The notes below the pieces were generated by a model. That model made no database searches. It saw nothing but the letters and a program-made list of their open reading frames with translations, and was not told the DNA's origin. Positions 9,280-42,010 of a stretch of 64,000 bases of DNA are shown here, one piece after another. The DNA is from Loxodes magnus. Its lineage: Eukaryota > Ciliophora > Karyorelictea > Loxodida > Loxodidae. Numbering within the stretch: the stretch's first letter is position 1; each line of letters starts with the position of its first letter. The stretch covers positions 434,001-498,000 of the forward strand of contig CAMPDV010000134.1 in the NCBI GenBank assembly GCA_946699065.1, read 5' to 3'. The position numbers were made by a program, and so were the translations under genes.

Positions 9280-12200
9280 ATGTCTGAAGATAACAAAGTA
9301 GACTTATCTTAAATAAACCTACAAGAGAATAAGATCTAAGACCAGATCAAAAGCTTAGACCAACCCTAAAGTCAAGACCAACCTTAGAAGGATAAGCAAA
9401 ATGAAGATGAGAAACTACTCAAGCCTAACCAGTTCGTATGGAAAACATTTGTCAGATACCTGATTTTTAGCATTTTGCTTCTGGTGATTGTGTATAAGTA
9501 GCTTTGGATCGGTACCAGCTTCTAGATAAACAACTTGATATTAGAGTCGTTTGATAAGAACGAGGATTATATGCTATCAGATGTGAAGACTCCAAATGAG
9601 CTGTACAAATGATTGGAGATATATGCTTATGGGATATACTAGTATCGAAAGGGATACGATAACCTTACTTTTAACCTCTTCGATGAAGAAGAATACAATC
9701 TAGATCCAGTCAATGGATGACTGGAAGCTTTCAACAGAATCATTACCGATATTAGACTCACTTAGAGGAGAATTAAACTAATGAAAAACCCTTCTAGCAG
9801 CTATGAAAACTTCGTTAAAGAGGTTTGGTCTTCAGACTAACTAGATATAAATGAGGGGAAATCCAGTGATGAATCTGATAAAACTTTCAATGAGTTTAAG
9901 TACTAAAAAGGAAAAGGATATGGCAAAAACGGAGGCTTTGTGGAGACCTTTCCTATCTAAAACTACAACTACACTAATTTTTATTTACATTTGACCTAAT
10001 TGAAGAACAAAAAGTGGATAGATGATGAAACAGCAGCAATAATAATGGAGTTTGTGAGCTATAATAGTAACTCAGAAATGTTTAGCTACGTACGAATTTA
10101 CTTCAAATTTGAAGCCACTGGGCTTATAACAGCGAATGCAAATGTTAACTCCATTAGAATTAATTTGTATATAAAAGAGAGAAAGGATGACATAGGAAGG
10201 CTCGTGTGTGAATTCATATACGCTCTTCTGACTCTCATTTATATACTAATCGAAATCTCCGAAATTAAGAGTGCTATTAGCAAGAGCAAAAACGAAATGA
10301 AGACTTCATAATCTAACTAGGATAAAGACAAAAAAGGACAATCAAAGTGTACTTGGTTAGTCTACTTCTGGAAAGGAATAAAGATTCATTTCCAAGAAGT
10401 ATGGAATTGGTTCGATGCCGCAAGTCTTATTCTATCTGTAATTACATGTGCGATATGGATAAATTTCATAACAAATGATTTCCGAAAAAATTTGAGTAAA
10501 GACGAAGACTTGATATGAGATGAAAATAACATTGACGAGTTTTATAGTCTAACTAGCTTGATGAGAATATATATCAGACTAAACGCCTTTAATCTACTTC
10601 TAGTTTTCATCAGAATACTTAAATACTTATCTGCCATCGACAGAATTCAGGTCCTACACTCAACTTTATGGGAGGCAAAGGATGATATCATCTCTTACTT
10701 CGTACTGCTTCTTTGCATCTTTATGGGATTCGTTCTGCTAGCAAATTTCAACTTCGGTCATGCAATTTACGAGTTGTCAAGCATTCCACGAGCGATGAAG
10801 GAATGTATTTTCACGATGTTGGGATAAGTAGATACAGTGGAAAAAATGCTAAAGGAGGACAGAGCTTTAGCGATAGTATTCTATGTACCACTGATGATAA
10901 TCATCACCTTCATACTTCTAAAGATGTTCGTAGCTATTCTATGCTTGAGTTACTTCACATGTGATTAGAAGTTCATGGAGTCATAGAAAAAACTGAAGAA
11001 GGATGATCCTACGGATCTAAACGAAAAAGACGTCCATATCTTAGTTAAGTTCAAGGAAAAACTGCTGTATTATAAAAAGCAGTGCGCTAAGTGCCTCAAG
11101 TGCTGTAAGAAACAATCGGGAGAGGAAGAATAGAAAGATGAGGCTAATTAGCAAGCTGTGGATAATGAAAACTGGAGTAGAGCGTATACGTCTTGGGACG
11201 CTGTTTTTAAAAAGTAGAAACAAAGGCTAGAAATAGACGAAAATATAATGTCTGAGCAAGAGATTTTGGAAATCAAGCATAAGAAGTAAAGAAAATGTGG
11301 GAAAGAGATTAGGAACACTCTCATATTCATAGGCTTCGTACTCGTGTTTATATTCACTCTCCTTGCCTAACTAGAAAGTAACTTAAACCATAGACTGACA
11401 TTTGGAATTAAAGACTCATTGGATGATTTACCAATAGAATCAGATTCTACAAAAGATCCTGAGGAAATTAAAAGACTAAGAGACATGAGGTTCATTACAG
11501 AAATGAAAGATTCCCTGCAAAATGTCTTTTTAAATATACTAGAAGTTAGACCTGAAAGCAATGGTACACATACATTAGATCTGCTCTTCTTTGATAAAGA
11601 AAACTACATTTTAGGGCAATTTTTAAACTCCTCAGATGCTGGGCTATTCCGTCTAACTCTTAGATTAATTGAAATAAAAGAATCTAAAAGTTCAACTGAA
11701 CTTTGAAGGAAAAATTATGACTTTATGACAAGAGAAGTTATAGGGTTTAGTCCGTATTCTTCAGATCAAAATCATGAGCTAAAATAAGATATAGTGGGAA
11801 GATATACTGGAAAAGTATATAAGCACTCGAAAGATGGAGGATTCAACGATGCAGGAGGCTATATAATCTATTTGCATGGAAATGGTATAGATTAGATATA
11901 TAACCAGGAGATTAAAGAGTTTATATAAGATTAAGTATTCAACAAACTGACTAACTCAGTTGTCATCGACTTCGTATTATACAACGCTGACTCAAACTAT
12001 TTTATATATTGCGCTTTCATTTTTTAGTTCACATTCAGTGGAATGATAGAAGCGGAGACTTTGGTCCAAACGGTAAAAATAAAAAACTACATTCGAACCA
12101 AAGACTGAGTAAGATGTGCTTTCGAAATCATCTATGTTATCTACATCTTAGTTCTGTTTGTTAGAACGATAATAGTGATAAGGAAAAAATACGCAGTCTA

Positions 12201-13575
12201 TTAAGAGTGGTATCATAAACTTATCACTCCCTTACCTTCTTATTTCAAAACACTGAGATAGAGAAAAGAACCAGAATGGATCAGAATTACTAAGTACCTG
12301 TTTGAAAAAAAGAGATTCTTAGATATGCTGACCTGTATACTTTCAATGATAGCAATAGCATTCTGGATTTGGTATATCTCATATGATGCAAACAGAATCA
12401 TTCTTCCTCTAGATCATACTCGCTATTACCAGGATATATATTAGCAAGCTTATATCAAAAAGATCTACACATGGATTGCAGCTATGATTACTTTTGTTCT
12501 AGCAGTTAGACTACTTAAGCAATTAGAGGCTAGTAGATCTATGAAGTTGTTATAAGATGTCCTAGCAGCTGCTTTTAAGGATACTCAGTACTTGATAATC
12601 ATGCTAATTTGCTTGTTCTTAGGCTTTAATAGTATGGCTTTCTTATGTTTCGGTCATATGAGTGCTAAATTTCACGATTTTGGACTCTCAGCTCTAACAT
12701 GCTTTGAAATGATAATAGGAGAGTTCGATTACAAGCTACTAGATAAGGCTGACCCTGTAATGGCTCCAATCTTCTTCTTCCCTTTTATAATCATCTTCGT
12801 ATTCATCCTGATCAACATCTTTTTAGCAATCTTGTACAAAGCATACAAGCAAGTTAAGGAGAATGCACCACCTGAAGAGCCAGTAGAGATAATCCAGTCT
12901 ATAATCTAGTATGTATGTAGGAAGAAGTTTGAGAAAGGTAGTAAGGAAAATGCTAAGAAGGAGGAATACATAGAGGCAAACACTCAACCTAGAGAAAGAT
13001 ACGAAGAAGCGGAAGAACATGCTAAGAAGATATTCTGCAAAATTCCTTTGGGAATCAACGAAAAGAACAACATATAAGCTTGGGCTCAGTAAGCAGCTGA
13101 TGCTATTTTATACGAGATGGATGAGAGAAACAAGTTCTATAGACCTGTTCAGGAGACTTTAAATAAGAAGAAATAGGAATATACTGAATCAGAGCTTTAA
13201 GCACCATAGCCGAAATATCTAGAAGAGAAAGAGCTCAAAGAAAGGTTGAATTTTTGGGACTATGTGAGGGTAGGCTATCAGTATATATAAAAGCAAACTA
13301 GACAGATTGAAATAAACGCCGATGATCTGGACATTGCTATAAAGAAGAGCTAAGAAAACTTCAATGAAAAACAGCAGCAGAGATAAGAAGTTTTGAAGAA
13401 CATCAAAAAGTTAGAATTAGAACTGAATAAAGTAATGGAGAAGAACTCTAACCTTGCTAAATTCTTAGAAGATGAAAAGAAAAAAGAAAAAGGAAATCAG
13501 GAAGAGGAAGAATAAGAATAAGAAGATGGAAGTGAGATATAAGAATAGGAGGAAGAGAATGGAGAAAATAACTGA
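9280..13575 (+). CDS. Double-unit polycystin-type (TRPP) cation channel
   Basis: 1431 codons plus TGA with no frame change. A Gln/Asp-rich N-terminus is followed by a first transmembrane helix (residues about 55-75), a luminal domain with the polycystin LYKWLE motif (W is TGA) and further helices, ending in a pore-like segment near residue 510 (CIFTMLGQ) and a last helix FILLKMFVAILCLSY. A second complete unit then begins: a helix near residue 677, another luminal domain, five helices, a pore near residue 1140 (CFEMIIGEFDY, compare IILGD in PKD2) and IFFFPFIIIFVFILINIFLAIL. The tail is a coiled coil plus a Glu-rich end. Known: PKD2 subunits have six helices and form tetramers; two linked units would assemble as dimers. 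The unit A filter lacks the acidic residue. Ion selectivity is unknown. Confidence 0.85.
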
Positions 13576-20700: not shown

Positions 20701-23700
20701 CTAACCATTATCTGAGAAGCTCTATTGGAGGTTAAGCTCCGAATTCTTCTTTTTTTGGCATATTCAAATCATCCACAAACAGTATAAAGTATTTTCCTGA
20801 TGGTGGTCCAAATACATCTCTGGATCTCTTTGTCACTTTGCCATCAATTAGATCCTACGTTTAGTTAGCGCTAGTTTATGCACTAAAGGTCAAGCCAATA
20901 CTAGCGTAGTTTTCAGGCATTTATGTACCAAGCAAAGTTTCAGTATTAACAGATTTTCCTGTACCTGTTGGTCCTGGTTACAGAATATGCTTTTTGTTCA
21001 GCAAAAGCATCTTCATTATAAAATTGAGTCTGATTGAATCCTAAGTAGCTACTACAATCTCATTAAAGGTGAAAGATAAATCAATTTCCTAGGCGTTAAC
21101 AGTGTCTATTCATTGCTAATAGCCTTTGTTATTTATCGAAAAACTCCAATCGTATACAGAAGAACCAGCTGGGAAAGGATATTTAAGCTGTTGCTAATCA
21201 ATGATGATCCTCAGTTACTCTGTAAACTTCTTTCTGCCTACTCCATCAGTAGTTATACCAATTGACCAAGTAACTGCATAAATGAAAACATTTTCAAGCA
21301 TTTCTTCAAACTCTGATACTTATTCAGGAGTTTTGACTGAGAGTTCTGAATCTCTAAACTCGTTAAAGAAGCAATCTAAGATTTTCATTAGTGAAGCTAT
21401 TAGATTTGAATCACCTGCTGAAACTATTTCCTTAAAATTCCTTCTCACGTAGTCTATTAAAGGATAAGCATATGTCTCAAATAGTTTTGTTAGTGTTGGC
21501 ACGAAAGTCTTTTTCTCGTGGAACTTTTCAGGGATAAAGTTGATCCAGCTTTAAACCATAGGCTATACTCCTATATTTGATGGTTCCATATAAACCATAC
21601 CACATCTACTCACGGTAGCTGGACTGGCTACTTCTAAATCTTCGACTTCAAACATCATAGTCATGTGTGGAGTTAGAGGTATAATTTGACCTGAGTTAAG
21701 GCATAGTTTTTTATTATCATCCAAGACTGTGTTCATGTTTTCAATCCAAAGCGCATCAACTGGGCCATCAAACATCACCCAATGCTTATTTGATCCTGGT
21801 GGATTTTCCATATCTTTCACACATGCCAATATTATATAAGCAAGTATGCCTTCAGCCCATTCTCCTGTCAAAAGGTCTAAAGCACCATAAAGTTATTCCA
21901 TTGTAATAGATTTTGGATTAAGAATATGAACGAACACTTTGTCATATCCTTCTTAGTCCTTCAACGATGATATAGCTCTTTGCAGAACTTTGTAGTTAGA
22001 AGTTTTGCCACCTCCAGTAGCTCCTACCAACATAAGACCATGTCTTACTTAGATCGTATCATAGAGTTGGTAAATCTTCTCGATGAATTTAGGAGTTGGT
22101 TACTTATTTTCCTTCTCACATGCTTTCAATATAGCTCCATTTAGCAGTCCATATTCAACTTCAGGTTTCTCAATTCCTGGGAAAAGATCCTTTATGATGT
22201 TAGCAAAAAGTGGCAAGTCATCCTTTAAAAATTTAGGTACATTGACATCTCTCAGTGCTTTTAGAAGCAACTTCTGTTCATCCATATCTGGGTTTTCTCT
22301 TTTGATTAAACCAGCTGCATTGATAACAGATCTAACTGCTCTCATACCATAATCGTAATGCTTTTAATATGATAATTGCTCACTGCAAAGCTTGAATGTG
22401 GTAACCATTTTCTAGGCTAATTTTCTCGCAGTTGAGAAACCAAAGGAATAAAGCATAATTTCTCCTATTAACGCGTAATCGGGAACCATCATAGCGACTG
22501 GTCTGAATAAGGCTTTAAGATTATCAGGTAGTTCTGTTCTTCCTGCATAACCAGGATTCATAGTGATAAAAACGCAAAACGTAGGTTTAAGTACTATATC
22601 AGATCCTTCGAAAGCAATGTCAGGCTCTTTGTTTGCTTTAGCAGTGAACAATACTAATAGCTACTGCGCAATGACACTTAGCACTTCAATGTTAATTCTA
22701 TTAAACTCGTCAAAACAGCACCAAGCTCCACATGAAGCTAATCCCTTGAAGAATTTACCAACCATAATGTAGTCCATTTTATCTGAGCAGTTGAAGACAA
22801 CGCACTATTTAGCCAGAGCTTTTGCTAAGTCTTTTGTTGATTCTGTTTTACCTGTTCCTGCTGGACCAGCTGGAGCACCACCTAAATTTAAATCTAAAGC
22901 TCCCATCAAGGTCATATAGCATTTATCTGTCAAAGGAGTAATAACCAGTCTAAGTGTATTTCCTAGGTATTCATATCCATAAGGGAATTCTGTTTAGATA
23001 CATTTCACTATGCAATCATCTTCCCAATAGTATCTAAGTTAGGATATCCATTCAAAAGCTGAGATTTCTTCAATATTCAGTTTCATTAGATTTTCCACAA
23101 CATCTTTCGCATGCACATCAATGACAATCAAAGCACCTAGAGTGATACTCTATAAGCTAGTTAGTTTCTTTCTTACAAGAGCAACCATTTTTAAAAGTTA
23201 CTCATCTAACTTCTGGAAGTAGTCCTGTATGGTATGATTAATGATTGCATTTTCAACTTCTTTCGTCCAATGTACCTAAGATCCGTTTAGAACACATTAT
23301 CCAGGCCAATTAAGTACCCAAGCAGCTCTGTCTATAGTTCCATATTCTTCAATACTCTCCTTCAATTTCTATCTGACACTTCTCCTCATCATATCTTCCA
23401 CTTCACCCATCCAGTATTCTACTTACTTATTGTTAGGATCAACTATAAATACAAATTAAACTCTCTCGTTTTCCATGGATTTCATACCGTGTATTCTATT
23501 ATCCTCTGCAAACTCAATCTCCTTTATATTTTCGAAGACTTTTTTCAGATGTGGCTAAACTCTTCGAGGTTCTTTTGTCTCAGATAGAATTTCCAAAAGA
23601 TCATCGTTGGATAGGAAATAAAACCTAGTAAATGCCTATCTTTTGGTCTCCAGATAGTGGTTCAATCTATTCTGAATAATGTCCAGGTTTTTGTTACATT

Positions 23701-26700
23701 CTTGTAGTGTTTCCAATCTTCCTTATTTAGCACATGCTGGTAGAACCTTTGGATTCGCTTTTACTTGAGACATTATTTGTCTCCAGTTAGAATCAACCTG
23801 TTTAAACCTTTTACTTTCAGCTGGCAAATGCTTATTGATATCCCTTGAATCAAAGATAGGCTATAAGTACATCCATTCCTTTTAGCATTTACCCCATTCT
23901 TCTAAGGTATCGCATACACGAAGCAATTTATTGCACCACTCTTCTATTCTTTCTTCGAAGCATTTTTTATAAGGACTGAACTAGAAACTTTGAGAGTTGA
24001 GAACTTGCTCATCTAGGATTATCCAAATATCGTCAAATCCTCCCAAAATAAAGGTATCAGTTGCCTTATAAGGCTTTATTAAAAAGTCCAATGCATCCCA
24101 AGCTTCTTCCATTTTATTCAAACTTACTTCTATTTGGTACTCTTTACCTGCTCTTTCTCCTATATCGACACATATCTGAGTATGCTATTGCAATCCCATT
24201 TCTAAAACCTTTGTTAACGTGAAATCCTCAGTTGGTTTTACTTCAAATCCTACTTTTTCAGAAATTTACTCCCAATGTCTGTCAACCATTCCTTTCTTTG
24301 TCAATGCAACTACTAAAGGTACAAAAGGTCGAAACTCATCTACCTCTTTTTTAATGTGCTCAGCGATCTTGAGTATATTAGGCATTTCCTTCGTTTTGAA
24401 GTATCTCACACAACTAGCCATAGTCTTATTAGCTTGATCTACGAACTCTTCGATAAAAACTCCATCAAGATGTGCCCACGTTTCAGTAAGCCATTCATTA
24501 TGATACTTGAACCAGTTAGCAGTTGTGAGCCATAGATCACTATACCACTTAAATTCCTTTACACTCTACGAAAGCAGGGAATAGTCTGTTATTTTTTCCA
24601 TTCCAAATAGTTCCTCTCTTTAGTTATAAAGCTTAGCTTTTCTAACAGCTTCAGATAGTTTCTCATTCATTGACTCTACATATCTCGCTACCTCCTCGTA
24701 TGCATTTATATCCTAATAAGAGTCAAATGAATGCACTGTTTAATCTAGCTCATCAATAGTCTCTGAGAAGTCGTTTTACTCTTAAATCATTTAGTCTCTG
24801 AAAATCAACTTTTGCTTTTCTAAGTCTTCCGTTCTTTTTTCTATCAACTGATATGTCTTCTTAGGCTATCCAAATAGGTCTCATTTCCTATCTAGGTCTT
24901 CTTTACTGAATCTGTACAATAAACTTTCAAGCAAATTATAAATCTGCATATTTGATTATATCTGCTCAGTCATCTTTTCGATTTCCTTTGGAGTCTGCTC
25001 CATTATTTTTTTCACTGCTACTAGTTCTTCGATGTTTTATGATGTCTTTGCTATTTCTTTCTATGTATTTCTGAATCCATCCGACTTTACATTAACTGTA
25101 TTTCTTGCTCTTTTTGCTAGCAGCTCTATCAAAAGTTATACTGCCTATCCGTATTTCCCTGCTAATTGGCTTCTAACCTCTTTGCAGTGTACCTAGAAGC
25201 AAGAAACTCGTATAATTTCAGGAATCTCATTCAGAATCTTTTTTTCCAGTTCTTAGTGCTTCGTTATTTCTTGTTAGATTTCCGCAACAGACTTTTAGCT
25301 ATCTTCCTCTGCATTTTCAATAGACTCTACAAATGTCTCTGGTGAAAACTTCACAACACTATCAAAAGCATGGAATGTCTTTAAGAAATCGTTTAGTGGC
25401 TAGATTGCCTTCTCCATTATTTCCTATATTTATACTTTCAGATTCCAAACCCACGCATTCTCATCTAAAAGTTTCCCTCTGCTCCTTTCTTCATTTGTAG
25501 GTGGTAATGGTTACTCTTCTGGAATTTTAGCAGCTTTCAAGTGAGTTTCATATCCTTGCGTTTTGAATAGATGTGGAAGAATAAGTTCCTCCAACTGCTA
25601 GATATCCTATAACTTCCTAATTCCATCTTCAAATACTTAAAGCGTTCTCGTCACAAACAGCTAAGGATCGTTTGAGAAATAGAATTCAGGACCTTTAATA
25701 GCCTTAAGTACGTCTATAATGAAAAGTTCAATTGGTTCTTTAGGTTTATCGTCTTCATGTTCATAATGCATCTCAGGCCATGTATTTTACACTTCGCTAC
25801 TCGAAATAACTTTCACTCCTAATGGCACATGTTTCTTCAAACTGTCAACAAACTTATTGCAACTTTTTTACGTCAAGGTGAGTAAACTATCTTGCATCTA
25901 AAGCTTCACACAAGTTAGGAATCGTTTTAGCTTTCCAAATTCGTATGTCTCCTTGCTAGTTTCATGCATATTAAACCATCCTTTGCTTACTCCTGAGAAT
26001 GAAGAGGTGATTATTTAGTTCAACGTGTTGACCCATGATTTTAGGTTAAAATGAGCTTAGGAGATTGCTGAGATTTGCACTTATTTGAACTCTTCCAATT
26101 TCATTGTTTTACCGAACTCCGTCAGGAAAATTGACTTTGTTTCAGTTTCCATGCACTGTTGCTTTACCTTTTCTAGAACCTGAACTACTTCCTCCTTAAT
26201 GTACAAACTGTGGAAGCAAAACTATGAGAATTAATCAGGAAAATCATGTTCAGGGATTTGCAGAATTCCTTACTTAGGTGCTGCTTATTCTTGCTTAGGA
26301 GTAGGTAGCGTCAGATTTTTGCTAATGAGCTCTCTACCCGCTTCTACATAATACTTGTCAAATATAATTTTGTTCATTGTCCTTGCAAAGTCAACATCAG
26401 CTTCAACTAAAACAGCACATTTATCAGGATTACTAAACTGGGACAGTTTTTAGGTGTGAGTTGCTAGAGCGTGAAGTTTGTATTTTTGCTCTTAGCTTAG
26501 TGATGTAATATCCTCAGTTGGCATGTTATCCACATAGAACTTATACCTTATCATTGACTCAGCATACTTTCTTTATTAGTACGCATGAGTTATTCTTGCT
26601 GCCTATTTCCTTGGATCTTCAGCTTCAAATAGAATGTAAATTTTCGATAGGGAAAACTTCTCATTATTGTCCTAGAATTCTCCAATAAACTACCTTAGAT

Positions 26701-27145
26701 CATTGTCATATCCAGTTACATACGCTGGCTTTCAATTCCCCAGCTCTTTATCATCCAACTTTAGCACCTAGCACTTTATCTTTCTACCTCCAGCCTCCTT
26801 CATTCAATCTTCTGGAGTTCTCTCATCAAACATAGAATCATCAAACGGTTCTATAGGTAACCAAGCTTATGATGGAACAGAATGATCGATTCCTTTTGTT
26901 TTGAGTAGTTCTTCAATCTTATAATGCTTGAACTGTTTCTTCTTTCGTATTATAACAGACGCTCTAGGGATTCTACCAGGAACTTATTTAAAAGGTTCAA
27001 ATGCTTTTGGTTCAATATTCGCAATATCCTCTTATAGGTTCGCTTCAGTGTCCAGAATGACAGAGTCCTCATCCATAGTATCTTGAATCCTACTTTTCTT
27101 AGTTCTTTCTTTACTGTAATGGCCAGAACGGTAGCTGTTGTCCAT
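14730..27145 (-). CDS. Axonemal dynein heavy chain, inner-arm single-headed type (DNAH1-like)
   Basis: Three exons (27145-20562, 20503-18688, 18602-14730) give 4090 codons plus TGA. Known role: ATP-driven motor of ciliary inner dynein arms. Visible: the tail domain with [10 protein letters not shown] and [12 protein letters not shown]1 P-loop GPAGTGKT near residue 1427 followed by [23 protein letters not shown]2 GATGGGKT near 1705; AAA3 GPTGTGKS near 2055; AAA4 GVGGSGRQS near 2400; the coiled-coil stalk; and the C-terminal [14 protein letters not shown]. Overall length and the AAA4 context ([12 protein letters not shown]) resemble DNAH1 more than DNAH6 or DNAH7. Tryptophan is often TGA (GARW). 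The N-terminus is uncertain: an upstream ORF (27422-27165) could be joined in frame through a 25-nt GT-AG segment. Confidence 0.93.
18603..18687 (-). other. 85-nt spliceosomal intron with internal hairpin
   Basis: Begins GTAAGTTTAAT and ends ACTATAG on the minus strand. Removing 85 nt (3n+1) restores the dynein frame and joins DDYWETAQ to [11 protein letters not shown], matching the conserved DYWEPGKGLLQDP region. A TATTAAC branchpoint-like sequence lies 8-14 nt before the acceptor. Inside is a perfect 8-bp stem GCTATCAT/ATGATAGC extended by TCCAC/GTGGA around a 3-nt loop. Confidence 0.85.
20504..20561 (-). other. 58-nt spliceosomal intron
   Basis: GTAAGTATAT at the 5' end, TATATAG at the 3' end, and a perfect TACTAAC branchpoint about 12 nt upstream of the acceptor. 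Removing 58 nt (3n+1) restores frame and joins IVRHFNIIS to [13 protein letters not shown], the conserved RHFN region following AAA3. Confidence 0.9.
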
Positions 27146-34907: not shown

Positions 34908-36358
34908 TCACTTGGCTTTCTCCTCACTTTCAATATTGTACTCATAACCTTTTGCCTAGCAAAACTCTTCCCAGTCTACCGTATCTTTGAAGTTATAGGT
35001 TAAGGATAAGGAAATTAACGTCATGACGAAGAATATCCAGAGGATGATTTCATATCCCGTTCACTGATTATAAAATAGCTTACTGATAGAAGGATCTTTA
35101 CATAGAAGATCCCTGCTAAACTGGCTAGGCCGAAGCTGTAGAATACGAATCCGTAGATCTTGTGGCTAACTTTTAAGCCAAAGATTTTGGTTGTAATAGT
35201 TGGGAATAGGGAGTAATGACCTCCCATGCATGATAGACTTAAACATATTAAGGTTGCATAAAGGAACTTATAGTATGAGACATAGTAAAGCAATCCAGCA
35301 CATACGAGTTGGATTAAAAGGATAATTCTATATACGAAAATAAATCCAACATAATCGCTCCAGCTTGACCACATCAAACGCGAAAATCCATTTGCTATTC
35401 CAGTTAATGCTCCTACAGTCGAAAGGAACTGATCATCAAATTCGTAAGATTACCCAAAGCTTTTAAAAATAGCTGCTATGTAAATTCCATAAGACACTGA
35501 ACAAAAATTCATTACAATCAAAACCCAGAATTTGCTATGCATTAGTCCAGCTTTAACAGAAGGACAAACAGTATCTTTTTTATTTATCAGCTAAACTTCA
35601 ATTGACTTCTTTTAGCTCTACAACTTAGCTACGAAGAGCTATCTTCTTTCTTCTATTTCAGGTTTCTCCCATTTTTCAGGGAACCTTACTAGAATTACAG
35701 CTAAGATAGCGCATATTCCATAGCATATAACAAACGTGATATACATTTATGGTACATGCTATGCTATATCATTGGTAAAGTAGTAGTAAGAAACTACACC
35801 TACCTCTACCTTCTAATCTGGCTTCACATTGTCAGGATTAACTACCAATGTACCTATCAGTGAGAATACTGAAGCTCCTAAGCCAAAAAAGCAGAGGATT
35901 ATTCCATTCACTCTACCTTTGATATGTGGATAATACTCCCATCCACATTATAGTACTGGGATATATCCAACTCCAACAGCAATCGCTATAAAGATGATTA
36001 AGATAAGGAGAAAAGCTACCCAGTTAGTAGTGAAGGATAGAAAGGAGAGTCCTACTAGTACAAGTCCACAAGCTAAACCGATGGACTTTTTATGTCCTCA
36101 ATAATCAACCAATCCAGCTCCAAAAGGCATAATAATAGTACAGGTAGCGATGATAGAAGGTATAGCAATATACATATCATGGCTTGTGACTTCTTAGCCA
36201 TTTACTCTCAGTCAAGAAGTTATATAAACTTCAATGGTGGAGATGACCCATTAATGACCAAGCACGAAATGAGCTAAAATTCCTCCCAGAACTGACAAAA
36301 AGCCTCTTTAGGATAAAGTAAGTTTAGATTTCTAGCTTTTTTAATCTTCCTCCTGCAT
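34908..36358 (-). CDS. MFS transporter, oxalate/formate-antiporter-like
   Basis: Two exons (36358-35084 and 35063-34908) give 476 codons plus TGA, a normal MFS size. A basic leader (MQEEDQKSQKSKLTLSQRG) precedes helix 1 (FLSVLGGILAHFVLGHQWV), typical of the OFA/monocarboxylate branch. Loop 2-3 carries DYWGHKKSIG (MFS motif A, W encoded by TGA). Helix 5 is GVGYIPVLQCGWEYYP, and the second half holds CMGGHYSLFPTITTKIFG, another OFA-family signature. Twelve hydrophobic segments can be traced; the last (IILWIFFVMTLISLSLTYNF) appears only after a 20-nt intron is removed. Known: relatives exchange carboxylates or act in monocarboxylate transport. The substrate is unknown. Confidence 0.85.
35064..35083 (-). 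other. 20-nt intron in the MFS gene
   Basis: GTAAGCTATTTTATAATCAG on the minus strand. Removing exactly 20 nt (3n+2) brings the final transmembrane helix and a sensible C-terminus (DTVDWEEFCQAKGYEYNIES) into frame. Unspliced, the reading gives a Ser-rich non-hydrophobic end. Confidence 0.85.
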
Positions 36359-40747: not shown

Positions 40748-40811
40748 AATCAGTGAATTTCATATACATACCTTGCTAAGATTTATATGTATACTTCAAT
40801 TTTCACTGATT
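40748..40811 (-). promoter_or_regulatory. SECIS element in the 3' UTR of selenophosphate synthetase
   Basis: On the minus strand, 11 nt after the stop, a 10-bp perfect helix AATCAGTGAA/TTCACTGATT encloses the SECIS core. The 5' quartet UGAA is at 40798-40795 and the 3' UGAA is at 40762-40759 (tandem G-A pairs). Helix II is TATACATA/TATGTATA. The apical loop starts UAAAUCUUAGCAAGG, with an unpaired AAA 11 nt after the 5' UGA and a small CUU/AAG stem beyond it (form II-like). Known: eukaryotic SECIS elements recruit SBP2 and redirect UGA to selenocysteine. The fold was found by eye; no energy calculation was made. Confidence 0.75.
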
Positions 40812-40822
40812 TTAGATCCTTC

Positions 40823-42010
40823 TCAAACTTCAATAATATTTGCATCTTGCAAAATTTCAGCTGTTGGATTCTCTGGATTCTCACAGTTCTCGACGCTTCC
40901 TATTATCCAAGCAGGGAAATTTTCTATCTCTTCTATCTCCTTAACAAATTTTTCTGCATTTGACTTTTCGCATATTATTAGTAATCCTCCAGAAGTTTCA
41001 GCTGAATAGCCTTCGACTAGCTTAAAGTTATACACTTGCTTATCCATTTTTACCATGTTTTTTATAATTGGTAAGGAATGAATTTTCATGTCCTTTTTTA
41101 CTGTCTTGGCTAGATTTATAGCATGACCTTTAATTCCGAATCCTGTTACATCAGTAGCTCCCTTAGCCTCATATTTGTGCATTAACTCCGCAGCTTTTTT
41201 ATTTAATCTCGTCATTTGATTGACAGCTGTTGCATAAGCAGTTAATACCTCAAGCTCTGTAATAGGTTCTTAGAACTTCTTCCATAATTCCTTCTTAGTG
41301 TACAGCATTTCGTACAAATTAACTACCACTTATGTTCCTAATGGCTTAGTTAAAATGAGCACATCGCCTTATTCAACCTTCTAAGGATCTGGTACTATGA
41401 ATTTATCTTAGGTTAGTGAGGAGCTTGCAACTCCTCCTGTTAAATACCACGGATTTTTGACAGTTTAACCTCCTGAGATCTTAACACCTGCCTAGTTGCA
41501 TATATAGGTAAACCCTTATATTACCTACTAAGTACTTATCTCCATCTCCTAAGCACTCATAGTTGTGCATATTCCCAGAAGCATAAGAAAGTTGTCAATT
41601 TTGGTTACTCCTAAAGCATATAAATCAGAAAGAACGTTAGCCGCTGCAATTTGCCCTTATAAGAAAGGATCAGGAACTAAGGGGTAAAAAAAGTCTGTCG
41701 TTGAAATTAGGAAGTTCTAGCCATCTTCTAGTTTGGTAATGCTGACGTCTGGAGATTCGCTCTACATGATGTCTTTGTTAATAAGTCGCAAATATTATTA
41801 AAGCTCTACTTAAGGAACTTTACATCCTCAACCCTTCATTCCACAAAAATTAGTCATTGAGAAGTTTTCACTCAAGCCAATTTCCTAAGGTCTGAACTTA
41901 TACTACTAAATATACCGGTTCTTAAGCTCGACGCTTTAGTCGATAAAGTTATTAGATAAATTCTTTCAAAATCAAGGAACCTTTCAACTTTAGTTTTGGT
42001 CCGATTTCAT
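40823..42010 (-). CDS. SEPHS2: Selenophosphate synthetase with in-frame TGA at the Sec position
   Basis: 395 codons plus TGA (human SEPHS about 392-448). Known: makes selenophosphate from selenide and ATP for selenocysteine synthesis. It shows [19 protein letters not shown], then CGMKG-TGA-GCKVPQ with the TGA at 41828-41830 as residue 61, exactly the Sec of animal SEPHS2. Then [96 protein letters not shown], and the conserved end ANIIEV before TGA. Three upstream TGA codons read as Trp if the Met at 42010 is the start. No intron is seen. A SECIS lies just downstream. Alternatives at residue 61 are Trp or Cys decoding. Confidence 0.93.

Follow-up and report, generated by a model that had tools for sequence, protein, structure and literature searches.

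UGA codon 61 of a Loxodes magnus selenophosphate synthetase gene as a probable selenocysteine codon in a genome where UGA also stands at tryptophan and stop sites

The 64,000 nt stretch of the Loxodes magnus genome analysed here (the whole of it is called the window) contains an SPS2-type selenophosphate synthetase (SelD) gene in which UGA codon 61 is very probably read as selenocysteine (Sec), through a SECIS element and a Sec machinery that together would outcompete the Trp-tRNA. Sec at this codon is well supported by sequence evidence, namely the homologous site, a SECIS-like hairpin, a paralogue, the genes for tRNA-Sec, SecS and eEFSec, and the ends of thioredoxin reductase (TrxR) genes in the same genome. 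Inference from the same kind of data supports the view that UGA serves at Trp, Sec and stop sites within this one Loxodes genome, which is a clean new example of a published three-way use of the codon and not a discovery.

Results

The selenophosphate synthetase gene and its codon 61

The features discussed are collected in Table 1. As the preliminary description of the window had stated, a selenophosphate synthetase gene has TGA at residue 61 and ends in TGA after ANIIEV; both codons were confirmed in the translation of the minus-strand frame (41830-41828, in the context GMKG-TGA-GCKVPQ, and 40825-40823). With UGA read as Trp, query residues 38-395 give E=7e-82 against a solved chain of SEPHS1, Pfam finds both the AIRS N and the AIRS C domain, with homology over the full length, and the frame contains in-frame TAA and TAG, standing for Gln. 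Opposite UGA 61, SEPHS1 has Thr and the other solved chain, 5l16, has Cys. When 13 database proteins, picked from the best 120 of 7994, were aligned, the column of codon 61 held six Trp, five Cys (Blepharisma stoltei, P0003, and the sponge Amphimedon among them), one Arg and one gap. The Trp rows may be translations that render a Sec TGA as W. For Blepharisma UGA is recorded as Trp, and the loss of Sec from its SelD may accompany that reassignment.

Table 1. Positions in the window of the SelD gene, its UGA codons and hairpin, and the dynein frame
Feature	Position	Strand	Remarks
Selenophosphate synthetase (SelD/SPS2-type) CDS	40823..42010	-	395 codons plus stop; from translation, Pfam, structure match and paralogue (L001:889-2076, minus)
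UGA codon 9	41984..41986	-	In frame; would encode Trp in a translated N-terminal extension; kept in paralogue; coding status uncertain
UGA codon 13	41972..41974	-	In frame; would encode Trp in a translated N-terminal extension; kept in paralogue; coding status uncertain
UGA codon 15	41966..41968	-	In frame; would encode Trp in a translated N-terminal extension; kept in paralogue; coding status uncertain
UGA codon 61, predicted Sec	41828..41830	-	Homologous site; kept in paralogue
UGA stop after ANIIEV	40823..40825	-	C-terminus aligns with SEPHS1; kept in paralogue
SECIS-like hairpin	40749..40810	-	Helix I, UGA/GA core (UGA at 40798), helix II, AA in apical loop
Dynein heavy chain (DNAH1-like) frame	21110..26731	-	Pfam DHC_N2, AAA_6 and others
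UGA at dynein Trp site	24881..24883	-	Three DNAH1 chains have Trp there; the fourth alignment shown has Phe

A SelD paralogue and the N-terminal UGA codons

A second SelD gene (L001, on contig C15; 74% identity over 395 residues by tblastn, 75% in the multiple alignment) retains the Sec UGA, the UGA stop and the hairpin, together with UGAs at codons 9, 13 and 15. Between the paralogues, dN is 0.13 and dS 1.7 over codons 61-395, which points to strong constraint on the two copies and argues against their being pseudogenes. The longest identical run, of 36 nt (window 41813-41848), spans the Sec codon, and in both genes a small hairpin begins at the Sec UGA; a local recoding signal is not claimed (P=0.26 for the longest run, P=0.013 for a run across the Sec codon). 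A tRNA-Arg (CCG) gene is located near the second SelD gene, at L001:173-245.

The in-frame TGAs at codons 9, 13 and 15 do not figure in the preliminary description. If codons 9-15 are translated, SelD too would hold all three UGA meanings. The ATG and all three UGAs are common to both paralogues, there are zero indels over 37 codons, and conservative amino-acid changes make up 12 of 21 in the SelD frame vs 4 of 22 in an alternative, UGA-free frame of the N-terminal region, all of which argues for translation. The competing view is that the SelD mRNA has two meanings only (Sec and stop), these three UGAs being untranslated and the start lying elsewhere or a short intron intervening; it draws on the three UGAs within seven codons, far in excess of the one in 50 Trp codons of the dynein frames, on codons 1-37, where third-position bias was not seen, on the existence of the UGA-free frame, and on the failure of pS and pN to separate that frame from the SelD frame. 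We regard this as a serious possibility, though the less probable one, and it is compatible with Sec at codon 61, the two not being mutually exclusive. A splice reading of the N-terminus (frame 3 to frame 1 via a tiny intron) has the conserved frame of the paralogue against it but stays among the rivals.

A SECIS-like hairpin behind the stop codon

Beginning 12 nt past the stop UGA, the predicted element has the structural features of a SECIS (a stem-loop whose core is UGA/GA, whose helix II runs to about 9-11 bp and whose apical loop has AA), and in both SelD genes helix II measures 9-10 bp, AA starts the apical loop and the UGA/GA core is present. The core of the hairpin reads UUGA and the 3' core of the paralogue GGA; the usual SECIS core is A/GUGA. 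The low coordinate of the gene in the preliminary description, 40748, falls at the hairpin's end (40749).

Compared with shuffled sequences, the hairpins of the two SelD genes fold with z of -2.81 and -2.62, with 2 of 200 and 3 of 200 shuffles, respectively, being equally stable. All 20 pairs are kept in both paralogues, with two two-sided changes and one one-sided, and slid controls of the alignment were 25-55% paired; the observed covariation was reached by 125 of 500 shuffles, in a two-sequence alignment that has little power. A SECIS descriptor composed after the element had been seen gave one match in the 64 kb (both strands), at the SelD hairpin, and one in L001, at the matching place, and no match in 20 first-order Markov versions of the window. 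With a looser descriptor the elements of both SelD genes (SelD A and SelD B) and of the TrxR genes L016 and L017 were found, that of L018 was missed and that of L020 misplaced, and three further matches, with lower scores, appeared in the window. The Rfam SECIS families gave no match at either the SelD or the TrxR tails; since they are silent also at the otherwise clear TrxR ends, this suggests that the model misses the elements of this lineage. An alignment of six elements proved too poor for a SECIS covariance model.

Selenocysteine machinery in the genome

The preliminary description had looked to the assembly for tRNA-Sec, EFSec, SecS, SBP2 and PSTK, and held that a genome lacking tRNA-Sec, EFSec and SBP2 would speak against its reading. 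In the 705.73 Mb searched (7843 contigs), tRNA-Sec, eEFSec and SecS are all present, SBP2 is represented by a moderate candidate, and PSTK was not found with TIGR03575 or PF08433. The three tRNA-Sec(UCA) genes score 73.9, 70.5 and 63.5 bits vs the Rfam cut-off of 47, and ARAGORN calls the same three loci tRNA-Sec; the other 49 of the 52 listed matches fall under the cut-off. As all 14 control genomes give matches at E<=0.001, only 5 of them above the cut-off, weak tRNA-Sec matches are meaningless. The three genes (L003, L004 and L005) are near-identical, and two of them share a contig, about 640 kb apart.

SecS was found as a single match (E=1.9e-104). The eEFSec domain likewise gave a single match (domain positions 4-75 of 119), with none in the 14 controls, and the best solved matches of this locus are eEFSec structures (7zjw and 5izk, about 1e-126). 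Among 14 L7Ae-domain matches, one, L042, matches SBP2 best among solved structures (E=5e-7), ahead of L7a (E=1.6e-5), and is our SBP2 candidate; the remaining 13 were assessed by eye only. Two candidates for PSTK were rejected: L026, a TIGR03575 match, was judged to be KTI12 by a sequence motif and by its 194.8 bits to PF08433, and L028 was judged a generic P-loop ATPase. PF10262 (Rdx family) gave two partial matches, L043 and L044, in which Cys-x-x-UGA could not be placed; L044 looks, by its features, like the C-terminal part of SelT.

UGA at tryptophan sites and at the ends of thioredoxin reductase genes

The L. magnus MAC assembly (706 Mbp) is described under table 27, with UGA as the sole stop and also Trp, a median 3' UTR of 41 bp and an intron mode of 17 bp (PMC11441545). 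The earlier remark that other genes of the window have TGA where homologues have Trp holds for its dynein, in three of the four alignments shown. In SecS the two internal UGAs fall opposite Trp residues of solved chain 3bc8, and UGG is absent from the counted frame. The window also contains polycystin-type channel frames (10519-13575, plus strand) and an MFS transporter frame (35021-36097, minus strand).

Five of the 13 Pyr_redox_dim loci (L016-L020) end in Gly-Cys-UGA-Gly-UGA and, with L018 and L019 counted once (they are 99.7% identical), represent four distinct TrxR genes. Each has two to four UGAs at Trp sites, one UGA at the putative Sec site and, six bases further on, a UGA as stop, and we infer that each of the four reading frames holds Trp, Sec and stop UGAs. 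Codons 77 and 87 (numbered from EYDLF) are UGA in all four, and align with Trp of solved TrxR in L016 and L020, and via the paralogue alignment in the others. L020 has four UGAs at Trp sites (codons 42, 77, 87 and 396), which face Trp at all four in the TrxR1 chain shown and at three in the TrxR2 chain (the fourth being Phe), and zero UGG from EYDLF on. Counted from EYDLF on, UGA accounts for 10 of 19 Trp codons of the four TrxR genes, at sites common by descent and hence not an independent count; four dynein frames, once three UGAs at frame ends are set aside, have it at 1 of 50. The SECIS-bearing TrxR genes thus do not avoid UGA-Trp.

The TrxR tails fold with z of -5.1 (L016), -8.0 (L017), -3.1 (L018) and -2.1 (L020), and shuffles folding as well numbered 0 of 200 for each of the first three and 8 of 200 for L020, the weakest; for L018 and L020 the predicted SECIS core was located by eye, on the basis of folding. 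The motif GG.TGYTGAGG. found in L012 lies upstream, away from the protein end, and was taken as chance. A second in-frame UGA stands three codons past the stop (1903-1905) in L016, L017, L018 and L020, as if a tandem stop had been kept. A further locus, L021 (C46:859355-859666), is a TrxR-like frame that contains two UGAs, one of them at a Trp site of its relatives, and lacks the Gly-Cys-UGA-Gly end; it is perhaps a diverged Sec-free copy.

These data bear on whether UGA 61 of SelD might simply be Trp, like other internal UGAs of the genome. We consider this improbable: UGA does occupy Trp sites in the dynein, SecS and TrxR genes, and Trp is found at the site in six of the 13 aligned SelD proteins, but Cys stands there in other homologues, including Blepharisma and a solved chain, a SECIS-like hairpin and a Sec machinery are present, and the TrxR genes of the same genome end in Gly-Cys-UGA-Gly. 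A premature stop in a pseudogene, or a SECIS-independent readthrough of the kind described for the hymenopteran SPS1-UGA gene (PMC4561486), is more improbable still, considering the excess of dS over dN between the paralogues and the presence of hairpin and machinery.

What may decide the meaning of UGA

In the TrxR genes the presumed Sec UGA lies 44-46 nt from the SECIS core and the stop 38-40 nt, with UGAs at Trp sites at 309 nt (in L020) and at 1235-1371 nt. In SelD the corresponding distances are 1032 nt for Sec and 27 nt for the stop, codons 9-15 lying at 1170-1188 nt. The context UGAGGA accompanies the Sec codon of SelD and also codon 42 of L020, which is Trp by homology. As a UGA 309 nt away stands for Trp in one gene and one 1032 nt away for Sec in another, and UGAGGA occurs with either meaning, neither distance nor the next triplet suffices between genes. 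In all six genes examined, no other in-frame UGA lies between the Sec UGA and the stop.

In the mechanism that we favour, an SBP2-like protein and eEFSec carrying Sec-tRNA(UCA) would be drawn to the putative SECIS hairpin close downstream of the stop, a complex that may beat the UGA-reading Trp-tRNA inside SelD. UGA elsewhere in coding regions would give Trp, and the last UGA, close to the poly(A) tail, would be read by eRF1 as stop (the role of poly(A) is taken from the literature). It seems likely that single mRNAs carry all three UGA meanings, namely those of the four TrxR genes, one of them having UGA four times for Trp and once each for Sec and stop, and that each SECIS has its own reach or local signals redefine UGA against a competing sense tRNA, since meaning between genes follows neither of the two simple rules.

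With three outcomes on one mRNA, one can ask what tips the balance between Sec, the release factor and a sense tRNA. In organisms with the standard code the choice is between Sec and termination only; for Sec at SelD codon 61, a Trp-tRNA is the likely rival. The TrxR genes, where the Sec and stop UGAs are six bases apart, and the other genes named here constitute a ready test set.

Discussion

The overall interpretation that accompanied the preliminary description survives in two of its parts, Sec at residue 61 and, by inference, three-way use of UGA in the genome, and falls in the third, novelty. It took a UGA read as Trp, stop and Sec to be, as far as its author knew, undescribed for karyorelict-type codes. 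Swart et al. (2016) contradict this: they reported such a 'codon triality' of UGA, with Trp, stop and Sec, in Condylostoma magnum and in a karyorelict, Parduczia (PMC4967479). There, triality is stated in a figure legend, and TrxR alignments and a C. magnum tRNA-Sec are mentioned. That the general fact is already in print limits the surprise, and what remains of use is the puzzle of how UGA gets its meaning from gene to gene. Among the matches listed in our literature searches (including the best 25 of 37 and the best 15 of 3,096) we recognised no publication on Loxodes selenoproteins, and the main text of the 2024 Loxodes genome paper has zero words starting with 'seleno' (PMC11441545). No statement of three UGA meanings in one reading frame was found in the portions of the literature examined, which is weak evidence of absence.

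Several known systems are close to the one proposed here. Like Condylostoma and Parduczia, Loxodes has an ambiguous ciliate code and a TrxR Sec codon near the end of the gene, close to the SECIS (PMC4967479); it adds another karyorelict, SelD besides TrxR, and reading frames that appear to hold all three meanings. The SelTryp gene of Blastocrithidia (mBio 2025) resembles the Loxodes genes in that UGA means Trp and Sec within one selenoprotein gene, but UAA terminates there, so that UGA has two meanings and not three (PMC12153298). In Euplotes crassus TR1 and TR2, several in-frame UGAs likewise occur, one for Sec and the rest sense, with position deciding (Turanov 2013, PMC3737529), whereas the sense amino acid is Cys and UGA is never a stop. 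Sec is inserted only in the last 20 codons of Euplotes TR1 (PMC3737529), a rule that the SelD Sec codon, 1032 nt from its SECIS core, would break. Finally, the Loxodes gene has in common with eukaryotic SPS2 its two AIRS domains, the placing of UGA at the Sec site and a SECIS-like hairpin past the stop, and differs from it in its ciliate code, in the very short spacing between stop and hairpin, and in the presence of two UGA-bearing paralogues.
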